Source: a virus
IMG/VR virus record: IMGVR_UViG_3300019766_000019
Span: 1 to 26,103 of that record
Length of the DNA: 26,103 nt
Direction: 5' to 3' (one strand)
The notes beneath the pieces are model-generated. The model saw nothing but the letters and a program-made list of their open reading frames with translations. It had not been told where the DNA came from and ran no database searches. The position numbers and the translations under genes are program-made. Shown piece by piece: positions 4,714 to 24,896 of this stretch (position 1 is the stretch's first letter; each line of letters starts with the position of its first letter).

Positions 4714-5505
4714 CTAATAATTCATAATATACAGCTCACAAACTGTTTTCTTTTTCTTGTGAACATTGCTCCCAAGTGTATAATCAAACTTATCACTTTC
4801 AACTATTTTAAAATCTTTGTATAAATCACGCACAAAGGCACAATCGTTATAACTTAATAGAAACCTACCCTTTAACTCTTTTAAAGCCTTGTGTAGCCTC
4901 TTATGGTCATTTAAATTAAATGTTTTTGAGTTCTTATAATAACTTTCAGTTCCAACATAAGGTGGGTCGCAATAAAAAAAGGCCTCTTCCCTATCATAGT
5001 TTAATATTAACTTTTCAAAATCCATATTTTCAATAGTTACCATTTTTAATCGTTCGGACCATTTGGTAAAATCTCTATAAATATTTTTAGGTCTCCTACT
5101 TTTTGCACTCATTGCAAAATTATCGCCTTTACTTCCAAAACTCATCTGTAACTGGTAGAAATAAAAACAAGCTTTTTCCACATGGTCTCTTGGCTTCATA
5201 TTTTTAAATTTAATATCTGTAAATAGTTCACGACTAATTAATAAATCATTTAAATATTTTTGTAAAAGTAAAGGATTAGTTCTTATGCACCTGTGTAGGT
5301 TAATCAAATCACTATTAAAGTCATTTGCAACCTCTCTATATTTTCCATGAGTAGGAACTTCTTTTGCATAAAGCACATTTAAAGCACCTCCAAAAACTTC
5401 GACATATAAATCATGGTCACTTGGTATAAGTGAAACAATCTGTTTAGCTAATTTTGATTTACCACCAACCCAACCATGTGGTGGTTTTAATTTTGTAGTA
5501 TTAAT
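4714..5505 (-). CDS. Second D12-class DNA adenine methyltransferase, probable ATT start
   Basis: 263 residues if translation starts at ATT (5505-5503). No ATG, GTG or TTG start exists in frame before GTG at 5376, and starting there would lose essential motifs. The extra 43 codons encode GWVGGKSKLAK (residues 11-21) and VEVFGGA (35-41), which are the SAM-binding region of the class. The catalytic DPPY is at 180-183. A strong AGGAGG lies five bases before the ATT, just after an in-frame stop. It differs clearly from the methylase at 3854, so recognition may differ. Its own promoter carries an exact copy of the repressor operator, so expression is probably low until induction. The start is inferred from homology and ribosome site. 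Confidence 0.82.
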   Translation of the reverse strand: MNTTKLKPPHGWVGGKSKLAKQIVSLIPSDHDLYVEVFGGALNVLYAKEVPTHGKYREVANDFNSDLINLHRCIRTNPLLLQKYLNDLLISRELFTDIKFKNMKPRDHVEKACFYFYQLQMSFGSKGDNFAMSAKSRRPKNIYRDFTKWSERLKMVTIENMDFEKLILNYDREEAFFYCDPPYVGTESYYKNSKTFNLNDHKRLHKALKELKGRFLLSYNDCAFVRDLYKDFKIVESDKFDYTLGSNVHKKKKTVCELYIMNY

Positions 5506-5620: not shown

Positions 5621-5854
5621 CTAAGAAATAAATTTTAATCCTCTTTGAATTTCAATACAATCGCTTTTAACTGCTGTAATTTTGATAAATGAACCCTCAT
5701 CATAGATAACAGTTTCAATCTTATTATCAGCCATTAAATTAACTGTATATTGTAATTTCATATCTTTTATTGTTCCCTCTGCTTTTTCAGGGATAACTAT
5801 TGCTGAACCTGTGTCAGACTCTTCAATTACTGCCGTTTCAATTACTTTTTTCAC
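5621..5854 (-). CDS. Hypothetical protein, last gene of the late operon
   Basis: 77 residues, GTG start behind AGGAG with eight bases spacing. The ribosome site overlaps the stop of the endolysin gene, which indicates coupled translation. The sequence alternates hydrophobic and charged residues in a beta-like pattern (DMKLQYTVNLMADNKIETVIYD), and has no signal peptide or membrane helix. No family is recognised. It lies with lysis genes, so a late function is expected from context only. Confidence 0.7.
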   Translation of the reverse strand: MKKVIETAVIEESDTGSAIVIPEKAEGTIKDMKLQYTVNLMADNKIETVIYDEGSFIKITAVKSDCIEIQRGLKFIS

Positions 5855-5865
5855 GTTCTAATCTC

Positions 5866-6333
5866 CTATTTATAATATTTATGAACCATTTTTAAATAAT
5901 GCTCAGGTGTACCTTTTCCTAAAAAAGTGTTATAGTATTTTTTCCAATACTTAGCACGACCTTTCATATCTGCAGGAATTGCAGGTCTCTTTAAAATATA
6001 ATGCAACCTACAAAATAAAAGAGCTAAGAAACTGTTGTATCTTAGATGTTCCCACTCTACAAGTGAAATATCAACACCAAGCTCATTTAAAATCTTTTTT
6101 CTAAATCTTTTGGACCTATTCCTAATATCTTGAAATGGTATTCTGTCGAATTGAGTTAAACCCATTCCTGCAAATACAGTTCCATCAGGAATAGCACCTG
6201 CACCAGTTTCAGCACAAGCTGTCTCACGAATTAAGAAATGTGCTGTTTTATTTTTCCCATAGCCTAAACAATCACAGATAATCTTTGATTGTAAAGCTAT
6301 ATCTCCAACATAGCCATAGTTTTGATTTTTCAT
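5866..6333 (-). CDS. Probable endolysin (lysozyme/transglycosylase-like)
   Basis: 155 residues. Expected to cut cell-wall glycan at release of the tail particles. The N-terminal region has IRETACAETGAG (E37 and E42 are candidate catalytic glutamates), followed by GMGLTQFDRIPFQDI, which resembles the glycine-rich substrate-binding segment of lysozyme-fold phage muramidases. The C-terminal half is basic with many aromatic residues. No signal peptide is seen, so export would need the holin. Neighbours are two small lipoproteins and a DUF1353-like protein, a common lysis grouping. The family call rests on recalled motif resemblance. Confidence 0.6.
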   Translation of the reverse strand: MKNQNYGYVGDIALQSKIICDCLGYGKNKTAHFLIRETACAETGAGAIPDGTVFAGMGLTQFDRIPFQDIRNRSKRFRKKILNELGVDISLVEWEHLRYNSFLALLFCRLHYILKRPAIPADMKGRAKYWKKYYNTFLGKGTPEHYLKMVHKYYK

Positions 6334-6357
6334 TTTTCTACCACCAACAAGCTATTA

Positions 6358-6615
6358 TTATTCTTGAACTGATGAAGTACTCACAGCCTCTTTTTTTTTC
6401 TGATTGGCTATCTCTTCTTTCATCGCAGTTCTTGCTTTGTCATAAGTTACAACTACTTTATCAAATACCTCTAACTTATCGTTTTGAACTGGTAACTCAA
6501 CATAAACAGTTTTTGCACCTTTATAAACAACTTTTCCAGTTGAATAAACCTTTTCTGAAACCCCACACCCTGTTAGAACAAAAAGTCCTAAAACTAATAA
6601 AATTAAATTTTTCAT
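6358..6615 (-). CDS. Small lipoprotein, possible outer-membrane spanin subunit
   Basis: 85 residues. A type II signal sequence with lipobox LTGC predicts cleavage before Cys17. The mature part is about 69 residues, with VYKGAKTVYVELPV and a helical charged C-terminus. It starts inside the stop of the lipoprotein gene upstream (ATGA overlap). Small lipoproteins between holin/endolysin genes are often Rz1-like or lysis-associated, but it lacks a proline-rich mature region. The alternative is an immunity or surface-exclusion lipoprotein. Confidence 0.65.
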   Translation of the reverse strand: MKNLILLVLGLFVLTGCGVSEKVYSTGKVVYKGAKTVYVELPVQNDKLEVFDKVVVTYDKARTAMKEEIANQKKKEAVSTSSVQE

Positions 6616-6740
6616 TTTTTATCTCCTTTTTCAAATCCAAACGAACATTCTGGAACTGGATAATGTTTGTTCATTTTGCAAGAACAACCTGTAATTAAAA
6701 ACCCCATACATAGCATAAAAATTAACATTGTTTTTTTCAT
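6612..6740 (-). CDS. 42-residue lipoprotein overlapping two genes
   Basis: Starts with an ATG that overlaps the stop of the DUF1353-like gene (ATGA, 6737-6740) and ends with a TGA overlapping the next ATG (6612-6615). AAGGGG lies nine bases upstream. The peptide has a hydrophobic signal and lipobox LITGC (Cys19), then a mature chain of only 24 residues with three cysteines in all (C19, C21, C32). Overlaps on both sides and an intact lipobox make it a real gene. The size is like Rz1 proteins of lysis cassettes. Function is inferred. Confidence 0.65.
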   Translation of the reverse strand: MKKTMLIFMLCMGFLITGCSCKMNKHYPVPECSFGFEKGDKK

Positions 6741-7207
6741 AGCTGATTTCCCCTTTCTATGAATAAAGTTTGTTTTGATTTATTTTTGATTTCATCACTT
6801 GGATAAGACCACTTAATAAAACCACCAACCTGTACACCTAAATAAATACTTTTTCTTTTTAAGTAAGATACATCTGAGTTTTTATGAATATCTGACATAA
6901 TCCTGTTAGTTTCAGAAAAAGAGATTCCAAATTCTTTAAACTGCTCCTGCAGTAAAATTCTATGAGCCCATAATTCATCATGAGTGATATATCCATGAAT
7001 TGTATTTGCTAATACAGGTTTTAAAGCTCCCTGTGCTAAAGCAGGTACACTTCCACCATCTGTATCGCCACCTCTTTTAATTGTAAAAGTCAAATCAAGC
7101 TTTTTATCGTAATGCTTTAGACAAAAATCTTCATTATCCCCTTTGAACTGTTCAATGTATGCAGTACCACCATTTTTGAATGGAATTCTTAAAACAATAT
7201 CTTTCAA
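6737..7207 (-). CDS. DUF1353-like phage protein
   Basis: 156 residues. GGDTDGGSVPALAQGALKP followed about 15 residues later by HGYITHDELWAHR resembles the TDGAS(I/V)P and HDWLY motifs of the DUF1353 family, found beside lysis and tail genes of many phages. The biochemical role of that family is not known to me. No signal peptide is seen. It follows gpD by nine bases and overlaps the 42-residue lipoprotein, placing it at the border between tail and lysis genes. Confidence 0.65.
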   Translation of the reverse strand: MKDIVLRIPFKNGGTAYIEQFKGDNEDFCLKHYDKKLDLTFTIKRGGDTDGGSVPALAQGALKPVLANTIHGYITHDELWAHRILLQEQFKEFGISFSETNRIMSDIHKNSDVSYLKRKSIYLGVQVGGFIKWSYPSDEIKNKSKQTLFIERGNQL

Positions 7208-7216
7208 TTTTTTCTC

Positions 7217-8158
7217 CTAGTTTTCAATTTCAACACTTACTTTCCAACCACCTGAACGAGTCCATGAGTGATTACAACTCTCAACTGAATAAAGTCCATC
7301 ATCTTCGCCATTATAAGTGTTGATAATATTGACTTTAGAACCTGCATAAAGCTTTATCCCACGATTAGAAAAAGAACCTTTTACAGTTCCCTTATTCATC
7401 TGCAATAATTTAGCTTTTGCTTTTGTTTTTGCCTCTTCTTGGCTTTTATAACAACCTTTTAACTTGTAGCATGGTGTACCATCGCCATAAACAACTTTTT
7501 GAGTTTTTGCTTCGTCTATGTCATGCCATGAACATTCACACGATGAGTAATAAGTTTTTGTTGTATGCTTAATATTAGGAGAGCCTTTTTCACATTTAGT
7601 AATGTCAATAGTTCGCTCAGGCAGGTTTTCATCATCTTTATTTACAAAATAAACTATGTCATTTTTAATACTGAATAGAACGTTGTAATCTTTAGCTATT
7701 CTTTCTAAAAAATTAACATCTGATTCATTCGTTTGTAAAAGTGATTTAACAAAAGGATCAGTTGTTTTAAACTTTGTTTCATGACCTAGCCGCTTCGATA
7801 CAATATCAATGATATTAGATAGTTTTGTCTCTTTGTAATGATGAGATACTTTTTCTTTTTGTTTAGAATTGAACTCCACACCTGTTGCAGAAATACAAAG
7901 AATTTTATTATCAATTCTTGATGTAGTTTGAGTATGAAAAAGACCACAGTTTAACTCTTCGATTAAAATGTCATTTTTATAAGACTTAAAAATTAATTCT
8001 AATTTTGTATTAGGTGCAGGTCTTGGAAACTCAGGTATCATTTTTAGAGTAACCTTATCAGATTTACTACCTGCACAATCATTAAAGCTCACACTTGCAA
8101 TACTTGAAATTGATACAGGTTTACCACCTATTATTAAATCAACTGTAGTTTTTACCAT
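7217..8158 (-). CDS. D: Tail hub protein, P2 gpD family
   Basis: 313 residues, normal for the late control D/gp27-like hub family. In the particle it joins the tube to the central spike. Typical features are an N-terminal beta domain, KQKEKVSHHYKETKLSNII, then SLLQTNESDVNFLERIAKDY, a conserved signature of the family, and a C-terminal KLYAGSKVNI segment. It starts seven bases inside gene X. In P2 the order U-X-D is the same. The name late control is historical; nothing in the sequence suggests a transcription role. Confidence 0.88.
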   Translation of the reverse strand: MVKTTVDLIIGGKPVSISSIASVSFNDCAGSKSDKVTLKMIPEFPRPAPNTKLELIFKSYKNDILIEELNCGLFHTQTTSRIDNKILCISATGVEFNSKQKEKVSHHYKETKLSNIIDIVSKRLGHETKFKTTDPFVKSLLQTNESDVNFLERIAKDYNVLFSIKNDIVYFVNKDDENLPERTIDITKCEKGSPNIKHTTKTYYSSCECSWHDIDEAKTQKVVYGDGTPCYKLKGCYKSQEEAKTKAKAKLLQMNKGTVKGSFSNRGIKLYAGSKVNIINTYNGEDDGLYSVESCNHSWTRSGGWKVSVEIEN

Positions 8159-8376
8159 AGAGGCTCTCTTTTAGTTGATTTAGTTTTAACTGGCTCTTCT
8201 TTAAACTCAGGGAGCTTTATAACAGTACCTGCTTTTAAAACCATAGAATTTTTAAATAAATGTTTATTCTCAGCAATTACTTTATTTAACTGCTCTAAGC
8301 CCTTATAATGCTTTAAAACAATTAAATCAATTCTATCTCCTGTACTACAAGTATAATTAGTGTAATTCATCATCAA
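8152..8376 (-). CDS. X: Tail protein X, P2 gpX family (LysM-like)
   Basis: 74 residues. YTCSTGDRIDLIVLKHYKG followed by LNKVIAENKHL and LKAGTVIKLPEF forms the short LysM-like fold of gpX, a structural tail protein. The length matches the family. It overlaps gpU at its start and gpD at its end, an arrangement as in P2-like tails. The start has several consecutive ATG codons; the first after GAGG is chosen. Confidence 0.85.
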   Translation of the reverse strand: MMMNYTNYTCSTGDRIDLIVLKHYKGLEQLNKVIAENKHLFKNSMVLKAGTVIKLPEFKEEPVKTKSTKREPLW

Positions 8377-8764
8377 AAACCTCTTCTAAAGAAAGATTGT
8401 AAGTTTGTACTGTGCCTTTACCATCATCTAAAAAATGCTCCTCTGTAACACTCAAAGTATTTATAAGAACTTCAATATCATGTTTTAAGGTAGTAAATCT
8501 GATAGGTTCACGAGCTTTAAGATAATCTTCTAGTGGTTTAAGTGCATTCAATGGTTGAAGAACAAGCACACCATTTAATGTGAATTTGTTATCATACCCT
8601 CCTGAGTCAGTTTTAGATTTCTGACCCTTTACGGGTGTAAATTCCCCATGAGTTGCAGTTAATGTTTGAGATATTTTTTTATATTGGTTCTTATCCATAT
8701 AAAAGGCAAAATCTCCAATTTTCCCCATATCTTTACCACTAATTAGATTATCTATTGTTGCCAT
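8357..8764 (-). CDS. U: Tail terminator-like protein, P2 gpU family
   Basis: 135 residues. GDFAFYMDKNQYKKISQTLTATHGEFTPVKGQK and LQPLNALKPLEDYLKAREPI match the pattern of gpU (a short protein with W/Y-rich start, then a PLxxL segment). It caps or finishes the tail tube and normally lies between T and X, as here apart from the inserted nuclease. It starts two bases after the nuclease stop region and overlaps gene X by 20 bases. Confidence 0.82.
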   Translation of the reverse strand: MATIDNLISGKDMGKIGDFAFYMDKNQYKKISQTLTATHGEFTPVKGQKSKTDSGGYDNKFTLNGVLVLQPLNALKPLEDYLKAREPIRFTTLKHDIEVLINTLSVTEEHFLDDGKGTVQTYNLSLEEVFDDELH

Positions 8765-8766
8765 GC

Positions 8767-9378
8767 TTAGAACCTTTTATAAATGCCTCTTTTTTCAAGA
8801 TTAGCCTCACGACTAAGCTCTAATAAGTAAGCCTTTCTTTCTTTGCTAATTTTGTTGTTTGGATAGTAAACTGCCCAACCATTTCTAACCAATGAAAATG
8901 TTAGAACCTCAATCCATACAAGCTCTCTGTCATACTTATCTTTTCCATACGAATAGTATTTAACTGTTTTTCCTAAATATCTTTTAGAAACAAAATCTTT
9001 AGCCTTATGACCTAACGATAAGACCTTTTTAACTGTATGCTCATATTTATCTTTATGCTGTGGATTATTAGGATGTACATTTTTAAGAGTCTCTAACTGT
9101 TTAAAAACTCTATGATTAAATTTAGTTTCAAACGTATCAATAGCAATTAATCTAACTCTAAAAGGTTTTCCACCCTTTCTCTGTAACCATAAAGTATCTC
9201 CATCCATTTCAGCCCACGAAGGTAAAACAACAGTTGCTTCTTTCCAATCAGTTAATAACTGTTTATCAGTCTGTTTTACACTCTCTTTAATTGCTGAACC
9301 AATAGTACTATCTGCCTTATTCCAATCAAGAGCAAAAGCTCCAATAACTAGTAAAACTAGTAACATTATTTTTTTCAT
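8767..9378 (-). CDS. Secreted Staphylococcus-type nuclease (SNase fold)
   Basis: 203 residues. A hydrophobic N-terminus (about 1-16, MKKIMLLVLLVIGAFA) predicts export. The SNase domain follows: DGDTLWL with D61, FRVRLIAIDTFE with R76, D81 and E84, DKYDRELVWI with R151, then LVRNGWAVYYP. These match the known catalytic and calcium-binding residues (staphylococcal D21, R35, D40, E43, R87), so activity on DNA or RNA is likely. Predicted location is periplasmic or outside. It is encoded between tape measure and gpU in the tail operon, an unusual place. It could help degrade DNA at lysis or in target cells, or simply be cargo. Confidence 0.85.
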   Translation of the reverse strand: MKKIMLLVLLVIGAFALDWNKADSTIGSAIKESVKQTDKQLLTDWKEATVVLPSWAEMDGDTLWLQRKGGKPFRVRLIAIDTFETKFNHRVFKQLETLKNVHPNNPQHKDKYEHTVKKVLSLGHKAKDFVSKRYLGKTVKYYSYGKDKYDRELVWIEVLTFSLVRNGWAVYYPNNKISKERKAYLLELSREANLEKRGIYKRF

Positions 9379-9402
9379 TTCTTTTTTTCCTTTATATTAA
9401 AT

Positions 9403-11679
9403 TTAAGATGCATCTTCAAAAGTTGTATCTATTTCATCGTGCTTAAGCTCTTTTTGAACTCTGATAAATTTCTCTTTTAAATCTTCATAATCTACTTTTC
9501 CATCTGTAGCATTTACATGGATAGTTTGATTAATTTGTTGTGTAACAGGTCTATTAGTATTATTATTTTGAATACTATTTTTATGCTCTGTTAATTGTTG
9601 AGCTGTAACCTCTGAAACAGATTGAAGAGGAACTTTAGGGATAGCCTCTTTAATTGGTTTATAATTAAGATTATTAGCAGGTATTGAGCTTAATAACTTA
9701 GGTGTTTGTAAAGTCTTACTTTTCTCTTTATCATCTGAGCCAAACCAACCTTTAACCCATTGAACACCTTTTGAAACCATATTAATAGCACCTGCAGATA
9801 CACTAAATACTTTTTCAAGTAACTGTATCATCCACTTAATTGGAGTTAATGCAACTTTAAAAGCAAAACCAATTATTTGGCCAACACCTCGAGCAATTAT
9901 TCCAACTGTTTTTAATCCACCTGTGATATTCCATAACCATGAGAAAAGAGGAGCTACTGACTGGTAGATAGAAGCTATTGAGCCACCTATTCCACTAAAT
10001 GCACCTGTAAACTCTGAAACCATAGGAGCTAAACTTGTTTTTAACCCATCAAACACACCATTAAATACAGTTCTTACACTCTCAAACTTATTGTAAAGAT
10101 AAGCCCCTGCACCTGCTAAAGCCATAACACCTAATACAATCAAAGTAATAGGAGAGGCAAGAAGTGCTAAACCTGCAGTTAAACCTGACGCAACTAAACC
10201 AAATCCTGCTAAAGCAACAGAACCAACCACAAAAGCAGCTCCAAGTCCAAAGACCCATTTAGAAGCATTAGGAAACTTTGTACTAAAAGACTCAATACCA
10301 CCTGCAACTGATTTAATTCCACCTGTAATAAGTCTAATTGTAGGAAGTAAACCTGTAGTTGCTGTGATACTTAAACTCTCTAAAGCTGAACCTAAAAGTT
10401 TAAATTCCCCTTTTGTCGTATCAAGCTTAATAGCCTGAATATTTTTAGTAGTTCCTGCTGATTTATCCAAAGTAGATTTATAATCAAGTAAGCCTTTTTT
10501 TCCAACTTTCATAAGTGCTATTCCTGAACTTAGAGCAGTCATTCCAAAGATGTGTTTTAATTTTTCTGTTTTTTCATCCTCAGACATTCCTTTCATAGCA
10601 GAATTAAGCTCTCCTATAATGTTAGGCATACCTTTAAATTTACCCTGTGCATTAAATGCTGTTACACCTAAACTATCAAGTGCTTTTCGTGCTTCTGTTG
10701 GAGGTGCTGAAAGTCTTGTATACATTTGTCTTAATGATGTACCTGCCATACTTCCTTGAATACCAACATCCCCTAACTTACCTGCTAAAGCAGAAACCTC
10801 AGTTAATCCTGCTCCAAGCCCTGAAGCAATAGGAGCTGTATATTTCATAGTTTCCCCAAGCATGATTAAATCAGTATTTGAAGTCGTGAAAGTTTTTGCT
10901 AAAACATCAGAAACAAAACCCATTTTTTCAGCTTTAATGGAAAAACCACTTAATATATTTGATGAAATATCAGAAGTAGAAGCAAGGTCTAAATTACCTG
11001 CTGTTGCAAGTCCTAAAACCCCTGCCATAGCTCCTAATTGTTGTTTAGTATCAAATCCTGCTTTAGCTAAGAAAGTCATACCTTGACCTGCCTGTGTTGC
11101 ACTCCATTCAGTAGTTGCACCCAGTTCTTTAGCTTTTGCTGTTAGAAGAGTAAAATCCTCAGCTGTGATATTTTTAGTTAATGCTTTTACATCGGCCATA
11201 GTAGATTCAAAATCAATAGAAGCTTTAAAAGGCATAAACATAGTAGCACCTGCAGTAACTGCACCCATTACTGAGCCAGTCCCCATTTGTGGCTTAGATT
11301 TTCTTTGAGCCATAGCTCCTTTTCTTAGATTTTCAGCACTCTTTTTAGTCCAAAATGCCACCTGTTTGGCATCATGTTCAATTGCTGTCATATCTTTTCT
11401 AGCACCACTTAATGAAGCTCTACTTGTCTTAATATCTAATCGTATTGGATTAGCTGATATTTTTGCTGATTGACTTCTAATTTTCCCTAAGTGATTTTCT
11501 AAAGAGTTAAGATTTCTTTTTAATAATGGGAATTTTGTTTGTTTAAGTAGGTCAATTTTTTGTACAGTTGTAGCATATTTATGTACTTTATTTACAGATA
11601 CCTGTAAGAAGTTAGCACCCTTAATGGCACTATTCATAACCATATTTATACTAAGTGCTTGATTTCTAGCTGATGCCAT
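9403..11679 (-). CDS. T: Tail tape measure protein, P2 gpT/TP901 type
   Basis: 758 residues. Sets tail length and is expelled during contraction. An N-terminal helical region is followed by a TP901-like core (KAKELGATTEWSATQAGQ, SALAGKLGDVGIQGSMAGT, about residues 180-340). A strongly hydrophobic stretch lies at roughly 470-535 and a polar C-terminus has many glutamines and asparagines. The gene is intact. By the usual proportion of tape-measure length to tail length, a normal-length contractile tail is expected. It lies downstream of a terminator-like hairpin, so it may have its own promoter or depend on readthrough. Confidence 0.92.
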   Translation of the reverse strand: MASARNQALSINMVMNSAIKGANFLQVSVNKVHKYATTVQKIDLLKQTKFPLLKRNLNSLENHLGKIRSQSAKISANPIRLDIKTSRASLSGARKDMTAIEHDAKQVAFWTKKSAENLRKGAMAQRKSKPQMGTGSVMGAVTAGATMFMPFKASIDFESTMADVKALTKNITAEDFTLLTAKAKELGATTEWSATQAGQGMTFLAKAGFDTKQQLGAMAGVLGLATAGNLDLASTSDISSNILSGFSIKAEKMGFVSDVLAKTFTTSNTDLIMLGETMKYTAPIASGLGAGLTEVSALAGKLGDVGIQGSMAGTSLRQMYTRLSAPPTEARKALDSLGVTAFNAQGKFKGMPNIIGELNSAMKGMSEDEKTEKLKHIFGMTALSSGIALMKVGKKGLLDYKSTLDKSAGTTKNIQAIKLDTTKGEFKLLGSALESLSITATTGLLPTIRLITGGIKSVAGGIESFSTKFPNASKWVFGLGAAFVVGSVALAGFGLVASGLTAGLALLASPITLIVLGVMALAGAGAYLYNKFESVRTVFNGVFDGLKTSLAPMVSEFTGAFSGIGGSIASIYQSVAPLFSWLWNITGGLKTVGIIARGVGQIIGFAFKVALTPIKWMIQLLEKVFSVSAGAINMVSKGVQWVKGWFGSDDKEKSKTLQTPKLLSSIPANNLNYKPIKEAIPKVPLQSVSEVTAQQLTEHKNSIQNNNTNRPVTQQINQTIHVNATDGKVDYEDLKEKFIRVQKELKHDEIDTTFEDAS

Positions 11680-11823
11680 TTTATACCTCTTTTGTTATCT
11701 CTCTTTTTAAAACTCTATCCGGACAGTCACATTAAATACATCCTGGTCTGACACAAGTTTGTTACCAGGATCAGTCACATATTAATTCTGCAGCTGAATC
11801 ACAAAACCTCTAAAAAGAAAAAT
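11680..11823 (-). other. Non-coding gap with gene remnant and short repeats
   Basis: No convincing gene. On the minus strand an open stretch encodes VTDPGNKLVSDQDVFNVTVR and IEF before a stop, without a ribosome site; it looks like the tail of a decayed gene. ATCCTGGT (11740-11747) pairs with ACCAGGAT (11764-11771). CAGTCACAT is repeated directly at 11724-11732 and 11772-11780. The tape-measure ribosome site (AGAGG) lies at the left edge. It may be a scar from insertion of the HU gene and could hold a promoter for the tape measure. Confidence 0.4.
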
Positions 11824-11851
11824 AAAGGGTAGAAGATAACTCCTACCCTTT
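11824..11851 (-). terminator. Intrinsic terminator after the HU gene
   Basis: AAAGGGTAG (11824-11832) pairs perfectly with CTACCCTTT (11843-11851). Read leftward, the 9-bp stem is followed by a T-rich run (ATTTTTCTTTTT). It lies 12 bases after the HU stop and before the tape measure. This is the best terminator candidate in the window, and it splits the tail operon. Confidence 0.75.
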
Positions 11852-11863
11852 AAGCTGCTTCCA

Positions 11864-12211
11864 TTAGTTCATTAATGGATTTTCGCTGTTTACTGCACCA
11901 TTCATAGCATCTAATAAGCTATCTGATTCCACGAATAATACGTGAACACCTGCAGGTGCAACACCAGTTGTTCCATCAGGTAATTTGTAAGCTCTCTCTT
12001 GGTGCTCAGAAACTTTTAATGTTCCAAGACCTCTTACTTTGATGTCTTTACCTTGAATTAATGCATTGATTGATAAATCTCTTGCTTTGTCAAGTACTCT
12101 GTCGATGTCAGCTTTTGTTACATCTTTACCCTCAGCTTTTAATGCTTCGTGGATAAAATCCACAGACTCTTTTTGATTGATACTTCTTTCTGCGTTTGTT
12201 AATTCTGGCAT
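11864..12211 (-). CDS. HU/IHF-like nucleoid protein in the tail operon
   Basis: 115 residues, slightly longer than chromosomal HU. After an N-terminal extension, helical residues about 14-60 lead to KVRGLGTLKVSEHQERAYKL, which matches the GFGTFxvxxRxxR region, and then a beta-arm region that is short and altered (PDGTTGVAPAGVHVLF in place of the usual NPxTGxxIxIP). It should bend DNA as a dimer. Its third codon positions look less A/T-biased than those of the tail genes, and it has its own terminator, so it may be a later insertion. Possible roles are control of late genes, telomere or origin architecture, or cargo. Confidence 0.75.
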   Translation of the reverse strand: MPELTNAERSINQKESVDFIHEALKAEGKDVTKADIDRVLDKARDLSINALIQGKDIKVRGLGTLKVSEHQERAYKLPDGTTGVAPAGVHVLFVESDSLLDAMNGAVNSENPLMN

Positions 12212-12281
12212 GATTGCCCCTTTCGTTTTTTGATTTTTCTTTTACAGCTTTGCCAACCATTCAGGAAAGAAAAAATATTTG

Positions 12282-12739
12282 TTATATGCGATTTAACGCC
12301 ATTACCTCTAACTTTTGCTTGTGTTTTTTGAGTGCAACCTCATAATATTCAAGCCATTCACGAACTGACATTTTTTTCTGTTCAATTGCTGATAGAAAGA
12401 AATGCTCAGTTACTAAACTGTAAGCTTCTAGTCTAGTAGTTTTATCTCCTCCGAGTCGAACAAAAAAGACTGTTGCACCTGATTAATTAAAGATGCGTCT
12501 GCTCTTGATAACTTTTTAGCCTCTTCCATTGTAAGACCACAAGCAACAGAAATTTCAGCATAGGCACTTTGAGAATCTTGTTTTAATAATACTTCATCAT
12601 CTGCACCAGTTAGCTCATTAACAGTTACAACTGTTACCTCTTTTTCTTTACCTCTAACTTTTGCTTTTTTAGTCTCTCCAAAAGGATAAACTCTACTTAG
12701 AACAACTTGTTTTTTTTCATATTCGATTGGCTTTGCCAT
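12282..12739 (-). CDS. Tail assembly chaperone E+E' made by -1 frameshift
   Basis: Ribosomes reaching T TTT TTG (12467-12461, read leftward; 0-frame codons TTT and TTG) can slip back one base and continue in an open frame to TAA at 12284-12282, giving about 152 residues instead of 103. The added part contains YSLVTEHFFLSA, then QKKMSVREWLEYYEVALKK, which resembles the E' extension of P2-like phages, where the same slippery heptamer is used between tube and tape-measure genes. The fusion is expected to hold the tape measure and recruit tube subunits. The frames are seen; the frameshift itself is inferred from family behaviour. Confidence 0.8.
12428..12739 (-). CDS. E: Tail assembly chaperone, P2 gpE-like
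   Basis: 103 residues, the normal short product ending at TAG (12428-12430). The acidic small protein with VVTVNELTGADDEVLLKQ and CGLTMEEAKKLSRADA follows the pattern of short tail assembly chaperones placed between tube FII and tape measure T. It begins 23 bases after the tube gene. It is made together with the longer frameshift form, and the ratio between them matters for tail assembly in related phages. Confidence 0.82.
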   Translation of the reverse strand: MAKPIEYEKKQVVLSRVYPFGETKKAKVRGKEKEVTVVTVNELTGADDEVLLKQDSQSAYAEISVACGLTMEEAKKLSRADASLINQVQQSFLFDSEEIKLLD

Positions 12740-12762
12740 GCTTTTACCTTTGCTTTAAAATT

Positions 12763-13239
12763 TTAAACGTTATCACTAAAATTAGATGTCATATCAACTC
12801 CACCTAAAACATACTTGTAAGGGTGTCTTGTGTACTCAATAGTTGATACACCATCTACAAGTTCTTTGTATAAATCAACTCTTAGTTCAAATTGTCTTTT
12901 CACTTTATCTCCAACTTTAAACTCAGGAGATAATTTATGAAGCTGACCTTGAATCGTTGCAACTAAAGGAACATTTGAACCATCGTCACTAACATTCCCT
13001 TTTAAAACAAAAGGCTCTCCTTTTGCCATGTGAGTGATATAATCAGCACCTAAATTCTCAACTTCTACCGTCATTTTTACAGCTTTAACAATTCCTGTAC
13101 TATCTTCATCAACTGTTACAAACTCAAATTCAGGAGCTTTTGTACCGTCACCTGTATAACCAAAAGTGTTTTTACCACCTAATAGGATTGATAATCCTGT
13201 TAGAGCTTGTGAAGAAGCTCCTAATCCATGTTTATCCAT
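12763..13239 (-). CDS. FII: Tail tube protein, P2 FII family
   Basis: 158 residues. Forms the inner tube of the contractile tail. The chain is beta-rich, with AVKMTVEVENLGADYITHMAKGE, VPLVATIQGQLHKLSP and an RQFELRVDLYKELVDG segment, followed by EYTRHPYKYVLGGVD; these resemble FII-type tube subunits. It starts 12 bases after the sheath gene, in the same order as P2 (FI, FII). The length is close to the family norm of about 170. Confidence 0.88.
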   Translation of the reverse strand: MDKHGLGASSQALTGLSILLGGKNTFGYTGDGTKAPEFEFVTVDEDSTGIVKAVKMTVEVENLGADYITHMAKGEPFVLKGNVSDDGSNVPLVATIQGQLHKLSPEFKVGDKVKRQFELRVDLYKELVDGVSTIEYTRHPYKYVLGGVDMTSNFSDNV

Positions 13240-13251
13240 TACTTAGTCTCC

Positions 13252-14532
13252 TTAAATTTCTACTGTGTAGTATTCGCTTGTAGCGTAACCTTGAAGAACA
13301 ATAGTTCTTACACCCACGTTATTTCCTGCTTTGTAATCAAGATATAAAATCCCTGCAGAAATATCTGTCGGTGTATTTCTATCAGACCACCAAACATCAA
13401 AACCAACTGTTGCACCTGCTTTTTGAGATTTCATTAAAAATGCTTCAATGTCCCCTCTAGCTAATTCAAGAACCTCTGTTGTAGGTCTATGTTTATGCTT
13501 TTTAAGTGCTTTTTGAGACTCTTCATTGATTAAGTCGAAATATCTCATCGTTTCCAGTTTGTTGAATCTTGTATCATTTGATGGAGTTTCAAAGTTATAT
13601 AAAACATTTCCCATAACTTCATCGTTGATACATAAACAACCACCTGCATTTACAATAATGTTTACATCGCAAGTATCTTCGCCCTCCTCGTAGAAAAGAG
13701 GCACTGTACAATCTCCCATATTGAAGATTTCTCTATTTGCATGGTCAAAACAAGTTCCAAACTCTCCATGTTTTGCATCCCATCTAGCAATGTGACCTGC
13801 AATAATTGCTGAGTATGGTTTTAAGATATAAGCATCTTCAAAAGTAGACCAAACCTTTCGATAAAAAGGAACACTTAAATGTCTCGAAGAAGCTTGTTCC
13901 TTTAGCCATAAAAGAGCATCTTCAATATTTGTAGTCATTGAATTAGCAACAGAAATAGTTTTAGTTCCTGTAATTAATGAGTTAAGAGCATCAAGCACAG
14001 TTTTATCATGAGTAAACCATCCACAAAGTGGAATTCTTACTTTAGTAGCTAAAGCAGTTTTTGCCATCTTTAACTGTTGTAATGCTTTGATAACATCTGT
14101 TTTAATCTCAGGGTCTCCGTAGAAGTCAACAGGTGTTTTATCACAATGAGACTCTTCAAGTTCCACAACAGAGATAACAATAGGACTCTTTACATTTTGC
14201 ATGAAAATGTCATATAAATCCTCTCTTAATGTTCCAAACACCACATCAAAAGTTTCAAGTGCTTTTTCTGCATTTGAAAATCTAAGTAGACCTGCTTTTG
14301 AATCATCAAGGATTTTATCTTTAGCCTCATTGATAAGAGTAATTCTTTTTTGAAAATCCTCTTTAGCTTTTGAATCCTCTTTTGAAGTTCCAAGACCATC
14401 AATTTCAGCCTGTAACTCTTTTAAAGCTTTTGGGAAACAAACAGTTCCAACAATTCCTATAACTGTTGTACTCGTAATAACAACAGCTGTAGGACTAATA
14501 TTCTTGACATCTAATACTTTAATACCTGGCAT
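13252..14532 (-). CDS. FI: Contractile tail sheath protein, P2 FI family
   Basis: 426 residues. Forms the sheath whose contraction drives the tube into a target. MPGIKVLDVKNISPTAVVIT at the N-terminus and IVGTVCFPKAL match the opening of FI proteins. The C-terminal part contains GATVGFDVWWSDRNTPTDIS and ILYLDYKAGNN, the conserved handshake region. A charged insertion (about residues 40-75) looks coiled. The gene is intact, and it shows the tail is contractile (myovirus or R-type). Confidence 0.92.
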   Translation of the reverse strand: MPGIKVLDVKNISPTAVVITSTTVIGIVGTVCFPKALKELQAEIDGLGTSKEDSKAKEDFQKRITLINEAKDKILDDSKAGLLRFSNAEKALETFDVVFGTLREDLYDIFMQNVKSPIVISVVELEESHCDKTPVDFYGDPEIKTDVIKALQQLKMAKTALATKVRIPLCGWFTHDKTVLDALNSLITGTKTISVANSMTTNIEDALLWLKEQASSRHLSVPFYRKVWSTFEDAYILKPYSAIIAGHIARWDAKHGEFGTCFDHANREIFNMGDCTVPLFYEEGEDTCDVNIIVNAGGCLCINDEVMGNVLYNFETPSNDTRFNKLETMRYFDLINEESQKALKKHKHRPTTEVLELARGDIEAFLMKSQKAGATVGFDVWWSDRNTPTDISAGILYLDYKAGNNVGVRTIVLQGYATSEYYTVEI

Positions 14533-14545
14533 ATTAAATCCTTAC

Positions 14546-15058
14546 TTAGTTAATTTGTGGGAACTCAGGATAAACTGGCTCCCTGTTTTCTGAAATTGCA
14601 AGATTTCCCTCTTTGATACAATTTTCCATCCACTCAGTTCTAATTCCAACTTTTACTAACTTTTCAAAGTATGGCTTTTGTTCTTCATCTGTAACAGGAG
14701 CTAAAGCCTCAGCTAAAGTTTTTCCCTGATAGAAAGAAGTAATCATTTGCACTACTTGTAACTCTAAGTTTTCTACTGATTGAGCTTTTAACTTTGTAGT
14801 GTAGTTTGATACCCACTTTTCATCTTGGGATTGTTTTACAGCTGTGTATTTTGAGTAAACAAAAGTTTCGATTGCTTGAGCTTTTAATTTTGGTTCATTT
14901 TCAAGAACCCAATCGTTATATGCTTTTTCTAACTTACTTTTTTGAGTAGAAGTTAAAGCAGTTGTTTTACCTTTTGCATCAATAAAAAGAATTTTTCCAT
15001 CTTTTACTGTTACTGTTTTTTTAAATAGTTCAGTTGCTATTAATGATTTTTGCTTCAT
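14546..15058 (-). CDS. Hypothetical protein, candidate tail-fibre chaperone
   Basis: 170 residues, not recognised. Mostly helical and charged, with KSKLEKAYNDWVLENEPKLKA and LELQVVQMITSFYQGKTLAEA, and a proline-rich end PVYPEFPQIN. It lies between the fibre tip gene and the sheath gene, exactly where P2-like elements place gpG-type fibre assembly proteins. No signal or membrane segment. The function is inferred from position only. Confidence 0.55.
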   Translation of the reverse strand: MKQKSLIATELFKKTVTVKDGKILFIDAKGKTTALTSTQKSKLEKAYNDWVLENEPKLKAQAIETFVYSKYTAVKQSQDEKWVSNYTTKLKAQSVENLELQVVQMITSFYQGKTLAEALAPVTDEEQKPYFEKLVKVGIRTEWMENCIKEGNLAISENREPVYPEFPQIN

Positions 15059-15067
15059 CTTCTATCC

Positions 15068-15769
15068 TTACTTTAAAATTTCCCAAATAATGGCACTTGA
15101 ACCTGATTGATAACTTCTTGCATCTTTATTGTCATCAGGATTCCAATATAAAAATGGTGCTTGGTCACCTACATTAGTTCGATTTGTCCAACCAATATTT
15201 ACAGTATTATTTCCAATAACACCACCCTCTAATTTTTTATTAATGTTAAGAATAAAGCCCTCATTTTCAGAATTACCACCTGCATACCAGATACCTTTAT
15301 ATGCACTTCCATGAGCTTCAACACCAACACCATTAACATCACATCTAATACCACACACATCAGAATGATCTTGTTGTCCCGGAAGTAAAGCCTGTATCAT
15401 TAAAAAACTTTTTGAATCATCATATTTTTTTTGAACATCAAATGACCAAAAAGTATGACTAGGAACTCTTGCAAGAGTTACATTTTGTTCATGTGTTGCT
15501 ATTTGAACATTAACAACTTTTGTCATATCAATAATGTTTTGTAAACTCTTACCACCAAGTTTTAAAGCATTTTCAGCCTGTGCAACATTTCCTGTATTTA
15601 GAAGTTCTTGAATGGCTGTTAAACCCTCTTCACTTTTACCTGCCATAGCAGTTAAAATCTTTTGAGACTCTTCGCTTAACTTTGAAAAAACACCATCGTA
15701 TTTTTGAAGCAGTAGAGTTGCATTTTCATTTAACTGTTTGATTTCATCTGTTAGATTTTCAGCCATCAA
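15068..15769 (-). CDS. Tail-fibre distal protein, probable receptor-binding part
   Basis: 233 residues. The first 90 are helical and likely a trimeric coiled coil (NENATLLLQKYDGVFSKL). The rest is rich in G, N, W and S (HTFWSFDVQKKYDDSK, NSENEGFILNI, TVNIGWTNRTNVGDQA, SGSSAIIWEILK), as in beta-structured fibre tips that bind cell-surface targets. It overlaps the preceding fibre gene by 11 bases. Together with 15759 it could make one split fibre. In a tailocin this part would set which strains are killed. Confidence 0.6.
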   Translation of the reverse strand: MMAENLTDEIKQLNENATLLLQKYDGVFSKLSEESQKILTAMAGKSEEGLTAIQELLNTGNVAQAENALKLGGKSLQNIIDMTKVVNVQIATHEQNVTLARVPSHTFWSFDVQKKYDDSKSFLMIQALLPGQQDHSDVCGIRCDVNGVGVEAHGSAYKGIWYAGGNSENEGFILNINKKLEGGVIGNNTVNIGWTNRTNVGDQAPFLYWNPDDNKDARSYQSGSSAIIWEILK

Positions 15770-16295
15770 TTATCCCCTTATCAAATAATTTATTTTGTAG
15801 AACCACATTAAGATTAGTATTTGCAACTAAAGGTCTTAAAAATAGTTCATTTGCCTCTGTTAGAGTAATATAATCGCTCTTTTTAAAAACGATTTCCCCT
15901 GCATTTCCTTTTACTGCAACTTTCACAATAAAAGCTCCACCAATACCCTTGATTGGTACAATTTTAGGAGTTCTTGTTAAACTCACTAATTTGTTATCCT
16001 CTGTGATAATTCCCACACCATAGGTATAGCTCTCTAAATCCTCATCAACTGGAATAATCAAGTTGAAAGTAAGTACACCATTTTCATCGTAGTAGCTGCT
16101 TTCAACCACATCACTAAAAAAGATGTATGACTCTATATCTTCATAAGTGATTAAATCTTGATTTAAAAGCTCATCAAGTGCAGTTAAATCGTGAGTGTTA
16201 CTACCTATTAGAACAAAATTAGTTACTTTGTTTCGTAGCTCACTATTTAAGATATTTAATCCCTCTTCGGTTGGGACAGCCGTTAAATTTGCCAC
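15759..16295 (-). CDS. Tail-fibre N-terminal protein, P2 gpH-like
   Basis: 178 residues. ANLTAVPTEEGLNILNSELRNKVTNFVLIGSNT and YTYGVGIITEDNKLVSLTRTPKIVPIKGIGGAFIVKVAVKG follow the N-terminal domain of phage tail-fibre proteins that attach to the baseplate. It stops at about the length of that domain, without the usual shaft. It overlaps gpI by 13 bases at its start and the distal fibre gene at its end. This arrangement suggests a two-polypeptide fibre rather than a truncated gene, because both frames are intact and overlap in an ordered way. Confidence 0.7.
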   Translation of the reverse strand: MANLTAVPTEEGLNILNSELRNKVTNFVLIGSNTHDLTALDELLNQDLITYEDIESYIFFSDVVESSYYDENGVLTFNLIIPVDEDLESYTYGVGIITEDNKLVSLTRTPKIVPIKGIGGAFIVKVAVKGNAGEIVFKKSDYITLTEANELFLRPLVANTNLNVVLQNKLFDKGIIDG

Positions 16296-16939
16296 ACAGC
16301 ACCTCCTATTAAGTTATTTGTGCATACTGCAGGAGAATCAAAATTATGTTTAGTATCAGTTTGAAAACTAAACTCTACTCCTGTAGTCGCACTAAGTGGT
16401 GTGTCAATATCTTTAAAGCTCTCTTTTGAGTCTAAAGCTAAATTAAAATTCATAGCCTCATTCTTTTCTATATTTCCAGCACCTTTTGGAAAATCAATCA
16501 CAAAACTATTTAAATGGCTTCTTACATTCTTTGATGATTGAATCATCTTTTTAGCTTTGTCAAATTTTGCAGGAAGATAAACAACACTTGGGTCAGCTTT
16601 TAAAGTAACTTCTACATCAAAATAACCTGCTTCTAAATCTGCCTCAAACCACTCTTTTAACTTTCCATCTTCAAAACATACATTGATTGTTTGTTCTACT
16701 GCATAAACAGTCCCTGCATACTTTCTAATCTCTTTTGCATTATGAATATAAAGTCTTGCTTCTTTTTCTTCTAATCCTGAAATATCAACACTTTCACTTA
16801 ATGCTAAGTGTGGTAAAAGTCTTACATCACAAGTCAAGGGATCTATTTGTAAAACTGAATAATCATCTTTAACAATCTCATCAATTAATAAAGCGAACTC
16901 TTGGTCTGTTAAAGAAGAATTATTTGGTAATAAATTCAT
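16283..16939 (-). CDS. I: Baseplate protein, P2 gpI family
   Basis: 218 residues. A baseplate wedge component of P2-type tails that links J with the fibre. NLLPNNSSLTDQEFALLIDEI followed by IDPLTCDVRLLPHLALS matches the LLPP..... and P...LP.LA...D pattern of tail protein I, and KEIRKYAGTVYAVEQTINV its conserved middle region. A C-terminal extension of about 70 residues is less conserved. It overlaps J by ATGA (16936-16939). Confidence 0.85.
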   Translation of the reverse strand: MNLLPNNSSLTDQEFALLIDEIVKDDYSVLQIDPLTCDVRLLPHLALSESVDISGLEEKEARLYIHNAKEIRKYAGTVYAVEQTINVCFEDGKLKEWFEADLEAGYFDVEVTLKADPSVVYLPAKFDKAKKMIQSSKNVRSHLNSFVIDFPKGAGNIEKNEAMNFNLALDSKESFKDIDTPLSATTGVEFSFQTDTKHNFDSPAVCTNNLIGGAVWQI

Positions 16940-18051
16940 AGTACAGCCTCAACGAAATTCAAGTTATAAGAACCTATTTCAATGATTTCTTTATCATTTG
17001 TAATTACATCTTCAAAATCTGTATTTACACGATATACACCATCAATATGACACTTTCTTATATAATCACTCTTTGTAAAGTTTTGAGCGATAAAAAAACT
17101 GTTTTTAAAATTTGCTTCGATATTCTTTTGAATTTCTGTTTGTCTTAGTAAATCAAATACCTCAATAGTTGCAGTAATATTAACTATCTTTTTAATTGCA
17201 GGATTAACTGATACTTTGTCGTTTAAAGGTCTTACTTTTTTAGAACTAACTGCCTCAGTAACTTTGTTAATCATTAATTCATCAATCTCATGGTCAAAAG
17301 AGGCTAAATATAAATCAACACATAAAACTTTTTCAGACACAATTTTAATATCATCAATTCTACTGTCAGCACTAAAGGCAAAATATTTATAACTATCCTC
17401 AGCTCCTGCAGTTGATTTTCTATCATTCTCTTTTATAATTCTTAGTCTGTATCGGTCATCACTTTCAACAGCTTTTCCATTAGAGAAAAAATCAAGTTGT
17501 TTAACTTCAAAGGCAAAAGTAAGCTCAGTAACTACATTTTCAGTTTTAACTTCACTTTGAGATATAAACTCTTGAAGTTCTACTTTTCCAGTTCCTGTAA
17601 GTTCCCCTGCTTTAATAACAACATCTTCACTTAATACTGAACTATGCTTATCATCATCACTTGTTAAAATAGTTCCATGTGGTATCGTTAAATCTGTCGT
17701 TGCTTGAGCTAAAAGAGTTAATCTAAAATTAGTGTATGGATATTCCCCATCATCCCTAAAAACATTTTCTCTAGCTCCTAAGTGGTCTAAATCTTCTTTT
17801 GTAGCAGTAGTAATTAAAGCTTGTCTTACAGTCTCTTTTTTATCCTCTTGGTTGTGAATTTGTCTTAAAGTAGCAACTCTTAACTTTTTCATATATGGGT
17901 CAGATTCTAAAGGCATCCACTCAGTTTCATCTGTACTAAGTATTTTTTTAGCAAGTGCTACATTTTCGGCTAATAACTCATCAAAAGTTTTAGTATTAAA
18001 TGCTGTAGGCTCTTTTAGAGAAGAAAGTTTTGATTCAATTTCTTTATACAT
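16936..18051 (-). CDS. J: Baseplate protein, P2 gpJ family
   Basis: 371 residues. Forms the baseplate ring with I and W. TRQEDL-like segments are visible as TTATKEDLDHLGARENVFRD, and IPHGTILTSDDDKH is the conserved P.GT region. The C-terminal VNITATIEVFDLLRQTEIQKNIEANF matches the end of J-type proteins. The length is somewhat greater than P2 gpJ (302), mainly in the middle. It overlaps W and I, so the baseplate genes are translated together. Confidence 0.86.
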   Translation of the reverse strand: MYKEIESKLSSLKEPTAFNTKTFDELLAENVALAKKILSTDETEWMPLESDPYMKKLRVATLRQIHNQEDKKETVRQALITTATKEDLDHLGARENVFRDDGEYPYTNFRLTLLAQATTDLTIPHGTILTSDDDKHSSVLSEDVVIKAGELTGTGKVELQEFISQSEVKTENVVTELTFAFEVKQLDFFSNGKAVESDDRYRLRIIKENDRKSTAGAEDSYKYFAFSADSRIDDIKIVSEKVLCVDLYLASFDHEIDELMINKVTEAVSSKKVRPLNDKVSVNPAIKKIVNITATIEVFDLLRQTEIQKNIEANFKNSFFIAQNFTKSDYIRKCHIDGVYRVNTDFEDVITNDKEIIEIGSYNLNFVEAVL

Positions 18052-18373
18052 TTAAAACACCTTTTATGCTTCCATATTCCAAGAAAACTTCATAATATAG
18101 TCTTCCATTTCCAATTTCACTATCATCAATAGTTGAACTTTTATAAATCAATCTTGGGTCATGTTTACAAGCATCTTTTAGACATCTTTTAAAATCAATA
18201 ATCCAAGAACTATTAAAGCCTCTGTGCTTTAACTTGTAATATTCAGTACCATATTCAGGTTTTCCAATAACAGAGCCTTTTGGAGTTGTTAAACCATCTA
18301 TAAAACTTTTTTCAGGAGTTACTGCATAACCATCTGAACCAAGAGGTAAAGTACTGTTTATAATTTCCATCAA
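18044..18373 (-). CDS. W: Baseplate wedge protein, P2 gpW / T4 gp25 family
   Basis: 109 residues. Member of the small lysozyme-like-fold baseplate family that starts sheath polymerisation. GSDGYAVTPEKSFIDGLTTPKGSVIGKPEYGTEYY matches the motif of P2 W (tP.G.....PeYGs.l). DACKHDPRLIYKSSTI corresponds to the EPR segment of the gp25 family, here DPR. The position between V/PAAR and J is as in P2. Confidence 0.86.
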   Translation of the reverse strand: MMEIINSTLPLGSDGYAVTPEKSFIDGLTTPKGSVIGKPEYGTEYYKLKHRGFNSSWIIDFKRCLKDACKHDPRLIYKSSTIDDSEIGNGRLYYEVFLEYGSIKGVLNV

Positions 18374-18379
18374 TCCAAC

Positions 18380-18664
18380 CTACTCAGCAAATACAAAATC
18401 GCTACCAGTTGCATTTTTAGAGCCACAGGCAACATCATCGCCAACCCTAGCAACAGGAGAATCCTCAATTGAGATATAATCTGCTCCTGAACCTTGAACA
18501 GAATCATGACAAGCAGGACCACAGCAATGTGTATCCCAAGCATGACCCACACAATGAACAGGTATATCTTCAATACTTACAAAGTCAGACCCCTCAACAT
18601 TTGGTCGAGACGGCCAACAACCATGACCTGTACAAACATCCCCTTTTCTAACTACAGGATTCAT
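18380..18664 (-). CDS. PAAR-type spike tip protein
   Basis: 94 residues. Three repeating units with PVHCVGH, PVARVGD and related turns, plus Cys/His clusters (CTGHGCWPSRP, DTHCCGPACHD), fit the PAAR fold, a metal-binding cone at the end of contractile-tail spikes. The start overlaps the gpV stop (ATGA at 18661-18664), showing coupled production of spike and tip. P2 gpV carries its own iron-binding apex, whereas here the tip is a separate protein. No toxic extension is attached. Confidence 0.85.
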   Translation of the reverse strand: MNPVVRKGDVCTGHGCWPSRPNVEGSDFVSIEDIPVHCVGHAWDTHCCGPACHDSVQGSGADYISIEDSPVARVGDDVACGSKNATGSDFVFAE

Positions 18665-19107
18665 TTAGACTTCCTAAATTCAATATTTGCACCTTTTAAA
18701 GTCAATGTTTTTTCAGAATGTAACTCAATATCATCTTTTGAATGTAGTTTTATTTTTAATGGAGTTGTTAAAGTAATTTGTTTTTCTTTTGTATCATGGA
18801 TATAAACAGTTCCATCTTCAAACTCTTGGTAATATTTATTTTCATCAACACCTGCAGGTAATGGAATATCTTTATAAGTTAAATTTCTATCCACAAAACC
18901 ATCTTCGTTATCTCCGAACGGATTGAAAACAATCACTTGGTCACTTATTCTTACAGGTGTATGCTCTACTAAAAAAGAAGATGCTTTAGTTTTTACAGGA
19001 AGCCAGTTTGTAACTCTCTCATCTACATTAACCTTTACTACTAGCTTTTTGCCAGTTCCTAAAGTTATGTATTTAAAATCTACTATTTTCCCGTACTGTA
19101 TCATCAT
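18661..19107 (-). CDS. V: Baseplate spike protein, P2 gpV family
   Basis: 148 residues from the ATG at 19107, which overlaps the stop of the holin-like gene (TAATG). A longer upstream reading is possible but unlikely. IQYGKIVDFKYITLGTGKKLVVKVNVDERVTNWLP is the OB-fold start of gpV. DGTVYIHDTKEKQITLTTPLKIKLHSKDDIELHSEKTLTLKG forms beta-helix repeats that make the needle. It is shorter than P2 gpV (211) and has no HxH apex, consistent with the separate PAAR tip. Confidence 0.85.
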   Translation of the reverse strand: MMIQYGKIVDFKYITLGTGKKLVVKVNVDERVTNWLPVKTKASSFLVEHTPVRISDQVIVFNPFGDNEDGFVDRNLTYKDIPLPAGVDENKYYQEFEDGTVYIHDTKEKQITLTTPLKIKLHSKDDIELHSEKTLTLKGANIEFRKSK

Positions 19108-19469
19108 TACTTCTTTACTAAATCTAATAATCTCTCTTGATTTAGAGCGATTGAGTCCATTTTGTTTGATACACCTATATAACACTCTTTAGTGTTAGCT
19201 CTCTCAATTTCCAGAGTCTCATTTAAAATTGCAACTACTTCTTTATGTTGCTTTTGGTTTTCCTTGTAAACAGTAATAAATTCAGTTTGATTATTTGATA
19301 TTTGAGTGATTGCATTAGCTACTTTTTCATCATTCTTTTTATCCCTTAAGATGTTAAAAAGTAAAACAGCACAAATAATTGCTAATAAAATTACAGTTAA
19401 TCCTAGTACACCATATTCCATGTAAGCACTAGCAGTAGAACCAATAACACCGTCAGGAGATTTTATCAA
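19107..19469 (-). CDS. Membrane protein, holin-like, first gene of the late operon
   Basis: 120 residues with a probable TTG start at 19469-19467, behind GAGGA with about seven bases spacing; no ATG fits the reading frame before the membrane segment. One strongly hydrophobic helix (about residues 19-40, YGVLGLTVILLAIICAVLLF) is followed by a basic turn and a long polar coiled-coil-like tail. This shape suits a single-span holin or a membrane accessory. It is the first gene of the late operon, so it shares the late promoter. The holin role is inferred. Confidence 0.55.
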   Translation of the reverse strand: MIKSPDGVIGSTASAYMEYGVLGLTVILLAIICAVLLFNILRDKKNDEKVANAITQISNNQTEFITVYKENQKQHKEVVAILNETLEIERANTKECYIGVSNKMDSIALNQERLLDLVKK

Positions 19470-20669: not shown

Positions 20670-20690
20670 AGGGTTTCCTTTATTTAACAA

Positions 20691-20804: not shown

Positions 20805-20805
20805 T

Positions 20806-21021: not shown

Positions 21022-21023
21022 CC

Positions 21024-24891: not shown

Positions 24892-24896
24892 CATAG

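Follow-up and report, generated by a model that had tools for sequence, protein, structure and literature searches.

A contractile-tail operon without head genes on a telomere-resolved linear plasmid, a likely tailocin

IMG/VR virus record IMGVR_UViG_3300019766_000019 (26,103 bp; referred to as the window, by which we mean the whole stretch of DNA analysed) raises the question of what kind of element would keep a complete contractile tail without a head to go with it. R-type tailocins are headless phage tails, related to P2 or Mu, that kill competitors, and those known so far are, to our knowledge, fixed chromosomal loci. In contrast, the tail module of the window lies on what appears to be a linear plasmid closed by hairpins, which brings its own genes for replication and partition, and a preliminary description of this DNA had called it a likely linear-plasmid tailocin. 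The complete tail set, the lack of head genes and the linear replicon all support this proposal, and we consider it probable that the window represents an R-type tailocin, with an SOS-type repressor and lysis genes of its own, carried on its own telomere-resolved linear plasmid. Such an element would be expected to form particles and to kill.

Tail genes, head genes and the linear replicon

Scans against PHROGs and Pfam recovered a complete contractile tail gene set (sheath, tube, baseplate, spike and PAAR) on the minus strand of the window, within a putative late operon reading from 19469 to 5621. The genes for the baseplate spike gpV (18661–19185; phrog_9992, E 5.9e-9) and the PAAR spike tip (18380–18664; phrog_281, E 2.3e-20) are followed by those for the baseplate wedge proteins gpW/gp25 (18044–18373; phrog_43) and gpJ (16936–18051; phrog_6, E 3.3e-44), baseplate protein gpI (16283–16939; Pfam Tail_P2_I, E 3.2e-18) and a fibre block (14546–16295) composed of a fibre base (15759–16295), a fibre or tip protein (15068–15769) and a chaperone-like protein (14546–15058). 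Next come the contractile sheath FI (13252–14532; phrog_23, E 2.7e-29), whose single PDB match is the R2 pyocin sheath PA0622 (E 6.6e-13), and the tail tube FII (12763–13239; Pfam Phage_tube, E 2.1e-12). The tail chaperones E and E′ (12282–12739) are joined by a –1 frameshift, in which the E frame (12428–12739) slips at T TTT TTG (12467–12461) into an E′ ending at 12282; the slip site reads TTTTTTG in relatives G001 and G005 and TTTTTTA in G002, and the E′ sequence is conserved. The 758-aa tape measure protein (9403–11679; phrog_1533, E 1e-105; TIGR01760, E 2.7e-75), gpU (8357–8764; phrog_76, E 1.2e-8), gpX (8152–8376; phrog_46, E 3.8e-13), the baseplate hub gpD (7217–8158; phrog_52, E 2.7e-45; Pfam Phage_GPD) and a DUF1353, tail-assembly-associated protein (6737–7207; Pfam DUF1353, E 1.1e-7; phrog_1158) complete the module. 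Every tail part named in the preliminary description is therefore present as an open frame, while its assignment of the module to P2 has to be revised (see below).

Scans of IMG/VR with the protelomerase, sheath, gpJ, helicase and ParA proteins gathered a family of about 29 IMG/VR or metagenome-assembled genome (MAG) contigs with the layout of the window, all of them metagenomic, among them some near-duplicates and one contig (L067) from a Sulfurospirillum MAG. Near-full-length members measure 22.0–27.5 kb, and none is longer. With PHROGs, no window protein matched a head or packaging family at E ≤ 0.01; a phrog_55 'head closure' match on 12763–13239 was rejected as a connector, this gene being the FII tube (Pfam Phage_tube). 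The same searches applied to G415, a Mu-like relative that served as positive control, named its terminase (E 8e-123), portal (1.5e-77), MuF (9e-72), capsid (1.5e-30) and neck or tail completion (1.4e-19) genes, and recognised its protease gene as well. Profiles built from these G415 head genes found nothing in the six frames of 24 linear contigs or in the predicted frames of five further ones, and the TerL family phrog_38 was absent from ten elements and present in G415. Among the 25 best families listed for 110 accessory frames, PHROG and Pfam scans yielded no head gene, a supporting rather than exhaustive negative that partly rests on a separate ten-protein scan and on the head profiles. 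R-type pyocins and tailocins likewise combine a contractile tail (sheath, tube, baseplate, spike, fibres and chaperones) with lysis genes, putative in the case of the window, and with phage-type control, and they too lack head or packaging genes; one of them provides the sole PDB relative of the window sheath.

The sequence further indicates a linear replicon that is almost whole: a protelomerase gene is found towards the left of the window, while its right end extends past a telomere dyad. The predicted protelomerase, or telomere resolvase (293–1654, plus strand; 453 aa, tyrosine-recombinase type), matches Pfam ResT-TelK_cat (E 1.4e-11); its family profile finds ResT and TelK in PDB, and the catalytic-type residues are conserved. 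The right telomere (25913–26103) combines subterminal DnaA-box-like sites with a terminal palindrome, TTAATTATATAATTAA (26088–26103), that is homologous to palindromes of greater length at the ends of G001 and G016, and the window reads 8 nt beyond a dyad homologous to those of its relatives. The left subterminal region (1–292) has DnaA-box-like TTATTCACA sites at 8, 59 and 115, while the left telomere itself lies outside the window, some 30–125 bp seemingly missing as estimated from relatives. As to whether the contig is a whole replicon, the right telomere dyad is thus reached and the left telomere is not. The TTATTCACA sites are confined to the terminal regions (1–140 and 25913–26040; 6 observed versus 0.05 in shuffles), which suggests that DnaA is linked to replication or regulation close to the termini.

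Relatives supply both ends. G005 (27,145 bp) carries perfect 104-bp palindromes at its two ends, and G016 (26,659 bp) perfect terminal palindromes of 30 and 98 bp, as expected when sequencing reads round a hairpin end. Terminal palindromes at one end were found in G007 (254 bp), G001 (44 bp), and G008 and G021 (26–30 bp). Moreover, G007 and L101, which come from one sample, appear to be one element split in two within a reverse transcriptase gene, and would then make up a third telomere-to-telomere relative. Contig truncation was rejected as an explanation of headlessness because relatives end in such palindromes, and G005 and G016 are still without head genes from end to end. That head genes lie on an extension of the contig, one of the findings that the preliminary description had said would overturn it, is thereby excluded for the family, two relatives being complete from one hairpin end to the other.

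Head genes might also reside on another linear replicon that shares the cell, making the window one segment of a multipartite phage, and an intact tail and lysis half under selection would fit that arrangement. However, the telomere core GTTATTTA-W10-TAAATAAC occurs in six IMG/VR contigs that all belong to the linear-element family, the G005-type core occurs within IMG/VR in G005 only, and neither core was found outside the family among 2.9 million IMG/VR records. Scans with protelomerase, helicase and ParA likewise return family contigs only, with no head gene. No second element with heads was found in this way, and we regard a multipartite phage as very unlikely.

Conservation and history of the tail module

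The shared gene order of the family runs from protelomerase, ParA and its small partner through an accessory block and the lysis genes to D, X, U, a staphylococcal-nuclease-type gene (SNase) and the tape measure; it continues with an HU-like gene, E, tube, sheath, fibres, I, J, W, V and the holin-like gene, and ends with repressor, regulators, primase, helicase and a 140-aa gene. A deeper sister clade (G422, G423 and G424) has another repressor and helicase with the plan unchanged, its repressor being shorter (143 aa). Identity to the window falls to about 34% for the protelomerases of relatives and ranges from 65 to 83% for ParA. Pairwise dN/dS (Nei–Gojobori) is about 0.05–0.4 for most tail genes, similar to the replication genes, with higher values for gpI, gpX and DUF1353 (0.3–0.8 in some pairs), indicating that the tail genes are under purifying selection. 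In a gpJ tree, the 20 linear-family sequences all group in a single clade, apart from the 29 chromosomal sequences (SH-aLRT 100). This single clade argues that gpJ, and presumably the whole tail module, was acquired once and then stayed headless through deep divergence.

These observations bear on the possibility that the window is a decaying telomere phage that recently lost its head block. Telomere phages (N15, PY54 and phiKO2, and VHML, VP882 and vB_VpaM_MAR of Vibrio) share with the window a protelomerase, a repressor/Cro switch, partition genes and a prophage in the form of a hairpin-ended linear plasmid. Contractile-tailed members exist in Vibrio, the window sheath matching the vB_VpaM_MAR record (41,351 bp), and broken-looking frames in G005 could be taken for decay. 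However, telomere phages are about 40–55 kb and have head and packaging genes, whereas the replicon here is 24–27 kb and headless. Decay is rejected by a layout conserved in about 29 contigs, by the low dN/dS of most tail genes and by the retained programmed frameshift; together with headlessness across deep divergence and the single gpJ clade, this makes a decaying phage the least credible of the alternatives, and the preliminary description was right to set it aside. Searching by tblastn with the protelomerase gave no match in INPHARED phages or PLSDB plasmids, and a helicase search of plasmids gave one weak match. Among 397 Campylobacterota genomes, a protelomerase search found one contig, the 2.6-kb G277:C17 (L068), which encodes a remote protelomerase (290 aa) without tail genes and is possibly a linear plasmid of a different type. 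The toxins carried by telomere phages of Klebsiella are soluble proteins (telocins) and not tail particles (PMC12042878).

Within the family, variation is greatest in the fibre block. G007 contains a diversity-generating retroelement (DGR; L060:1129–1735) whose TR/VR pair is aimed at the C-terminus or tip of a fibre, TR and VR showing 13 differences over 101 positions, with 11 of these at TR adenines. A reverse transcriptase (RT) and an Avd-like gene lie beside the fibre gene of G420 (L129), and one further member has an RT and a bAvd match; no DGR was found in the window.

Mu-like relatives, transfer and two extra genes

The nearest tails are those of Mu-like phages of Campylobacterota, a phylum in which 60 of 397 genomes contain a gpJ relative. 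Campylobacter phage CAM-P21, Sulfurimonas phage SNW-1 and the chromosomal prophages G415, G196 and G164 have a homologous tail module that keeps the gene order of the linear elements and, as there, closes with a Dam-type methylase gene (4714–5376, minus strand, in the window; phrog_56, E 1.1e-53). The window gpJ is 33–36% identical to that of the named phages, and the gpJ proteins of this Mu-like group fall outside the linear-element clade. The three prophages, inspected in full, carry this module and the Dam-type gene next to a complete head block, whereas the linear elements have none; a Mu-type transposase is present in G415 and G164 (of the three, PHROGs naming of transposase and heads covers G415). 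In the regions examined, these relatives lack protelomerase, HU-like and SNase genes. The tail module is therefore, by sequence kinship, of the Campylobacterota Mu-like kind and not classical P2. The host is probably a member of the Campylobacterota as well, as hinted by the Sulfurospirillum MAG contig, the TTATTCACA box motifs and the kinship of the tails.

Several points weigh against a plasmid-borne tailocin. Its means of transfer is not visible, as no relaxase was found in the search and packaging genes are absent, while the family looks mosaic: divergence between G008 and G016 is uneven by gene (ParA 97% versus gpJ 63% identity), which implies recombination between lineages, so that this reading leaves some route of transfer unaccounted for. 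The gap would be filled either by natural transformation or by borrowing the heads of a helper from time to time. Furthermore, the family is known from metagenome contigs, and the tailocin is a prediction from genes; the FII and gpJ frames of the complete relative G005 look broken, by decay or assembly error, so that an individual copy may be defective or wrongly assembled. Finally, the HU-like gene (11864–12211; Pfam Bac_DNA_binding, E 1.7e-8) and the gene for a secreted SNase (8767–9378; Pfam SNase, E 1.4e-10) are extra to the tail module and have no known role in tailocins. Both lie within the tail operon of every linear element that covers that place.

The transfer question lends some interest to a tail-donor satellite, which would make tails and lysis proteins while a helper phage, such as a Mu-like prophage, gives heads and packaging, the hybrid particles carrying the plasmid. 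Homologous headed phages are common in the phylum (all three prophages inspected having head blocks), spread without transfer genes would be explained, and the SNase and HU-like genes hint at dealings with DNA. However, no terS, capsid-modifying or neck/tail-completion gene was recognised, such genes lying in the missing head block; no packaging site was recognised either, and, in contrast to typical satellites triggered by a helper, the window brings a repressor and putative lysis genes itself. We consider it unlikely that these plasmids spread on helper heads, be it as satellites only or as elements that also kill as tailocins. If true, tail-donor satellites would mirror those satellites that form capsids and borrow tails.

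The constant presence of the SNase gene, and an Endonuclease_NS gene in one relative, might instead point to a contractile injection system delivering one of these proteins as its cargo, either as an effector-loaded tailocin or in the manner of an extracellular contractile injection system (eCIS). Afp and other plasmid-borne eCIS are likewise phage-tail-like contractile machines on plasmids; Afp, a member of the eCIS lineage, is encoded on a large circular plasmid and has an ATPase and cargo toxins of its own. By contrast, PHROG and Pfam scans of the window, which did not specifically search eCIS models, assigned no frame to an eCIS AAA+ ATPase or cap protein. The SNase shows, by eye, a Sec-type signal peptide that points to the periplasm rather than to tube loading, and lysis genes and phage-type regulation fit tailocins, so that we hold effector delivery to be highly improbable.

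Lysis, control and a weapon borne by a plasmid

The lysis genes claimed in the preliminary description are supported in part. A probable endolysin (5866–6333, minus strand) is assigned by position, its sole family match being phrog_3108 (unknown function), and recognisable glycosyl hydrolase 108 (GH108) or lysozyme genes occupy this place in relatives; the window endolysin itself is a weaker case than claimed, and its AlphaFold model (pLDDT 45) was not used. A small lipoprotein with homologues in relatives (6358–6615, minus strand) is a possible spanin. The first gene of the operon (19107–19469, minus strand) encodes a conserved protein with one N-terminal membrane helix and no curated family, for which holin-like is a weak call.

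Family scans bore out the SOS-type repressor and the replication and partition system. The repressor (19983–20690, minus strand) has HTH and Peptidase S24 domains (Pfam Peptidase_S24, HTH_3), and on the plus strand it is followed by a Cro-like regulator (20788–21021; phrog_8) and a regulator weakly resembling late activators (21015–21488; phrog_836, E 7e-6). Replication and partition genes, all on the plus strand, comprise a ParA-type ATPase (2200–2808; phrog_164, E 1.6e-7) with a small ParB-like partner assigned by position and conservation (2808–3131), a CHC2/Toprim primase (21924–22955; Pfam) and a DUF5906 replicative helicase (22958–24787; Pfam, E 2.8e-20). Two sets of short iterated repeats, CATCAGGAACA and CCTATTCCTAATGTATTC, lie 3′ of the helicase gene (24820–25130) and are possible origin iterons. 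The conserved 140-aa protein adjoining the right telomere (25291–25713, plus strand; model pLDDT 85, zero PDB matches) could be a telomere or copy-control protein.

The accessory block of the window includes another Dam-type DNA methyltransferase (3854–4564, plus strand; MethyltransfD12, E 1.3e-7). Among the matches listed, accessory frames of relatives comprise methylases, PAPS-reductase-like proteins, lysozymes, HNH endonucleases, fibres and DGR parts. PAPS-reductase-like genes recur in L044, L048, L050 and L013, often beside C5 methylases, and such blocks are possibly a DNA-modification or defence cassette. No tRNA gene or Rfam family was matched in the window.

For the linear-plasmid tailocin, these genes suggest the following course. 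The element would be replicated by its own primase and helicase and partitioned by ParA, the protelomerase resolving its ends to hairpins, and the S24-type repressor would hold the late operon silent until damage inactivates it. Induction would then yield a contractile tail of about 110 nm, as predicted from the length of the tape measure, together with the holin-, endolysin- and spanin-like proteins, and lysis would free the headless tails. Fibre tips would choose the target, after which the sheath would contract and the tube would pierce and depolarise the target cell.

A search of open-access full text found no paper pairing 'tailocin' with 'protelomerase' or with 'Campylobacterota', an absence that is weak evidence. 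Hairpin-ended replicons, seemingly unreported in this phylum in the literature searched, would be added to its (probable) members, DGR-diversified fibres would occur on headless tails, and virus catalogues such as IMG/VR would hold 'viruses' that probably are not viruses. Tailocins are usually viewed as domesticated weapons fixed in the chromosome, whereas here the weapon would be a self-replicating, telomere-resolved linear plasmid. The family would thus offer a test case for the upkeep of a lethal, lysis-dependent trait without packaging genes, and would indicate that a plasmid-like element can specialise in tail-only particles over the long term.

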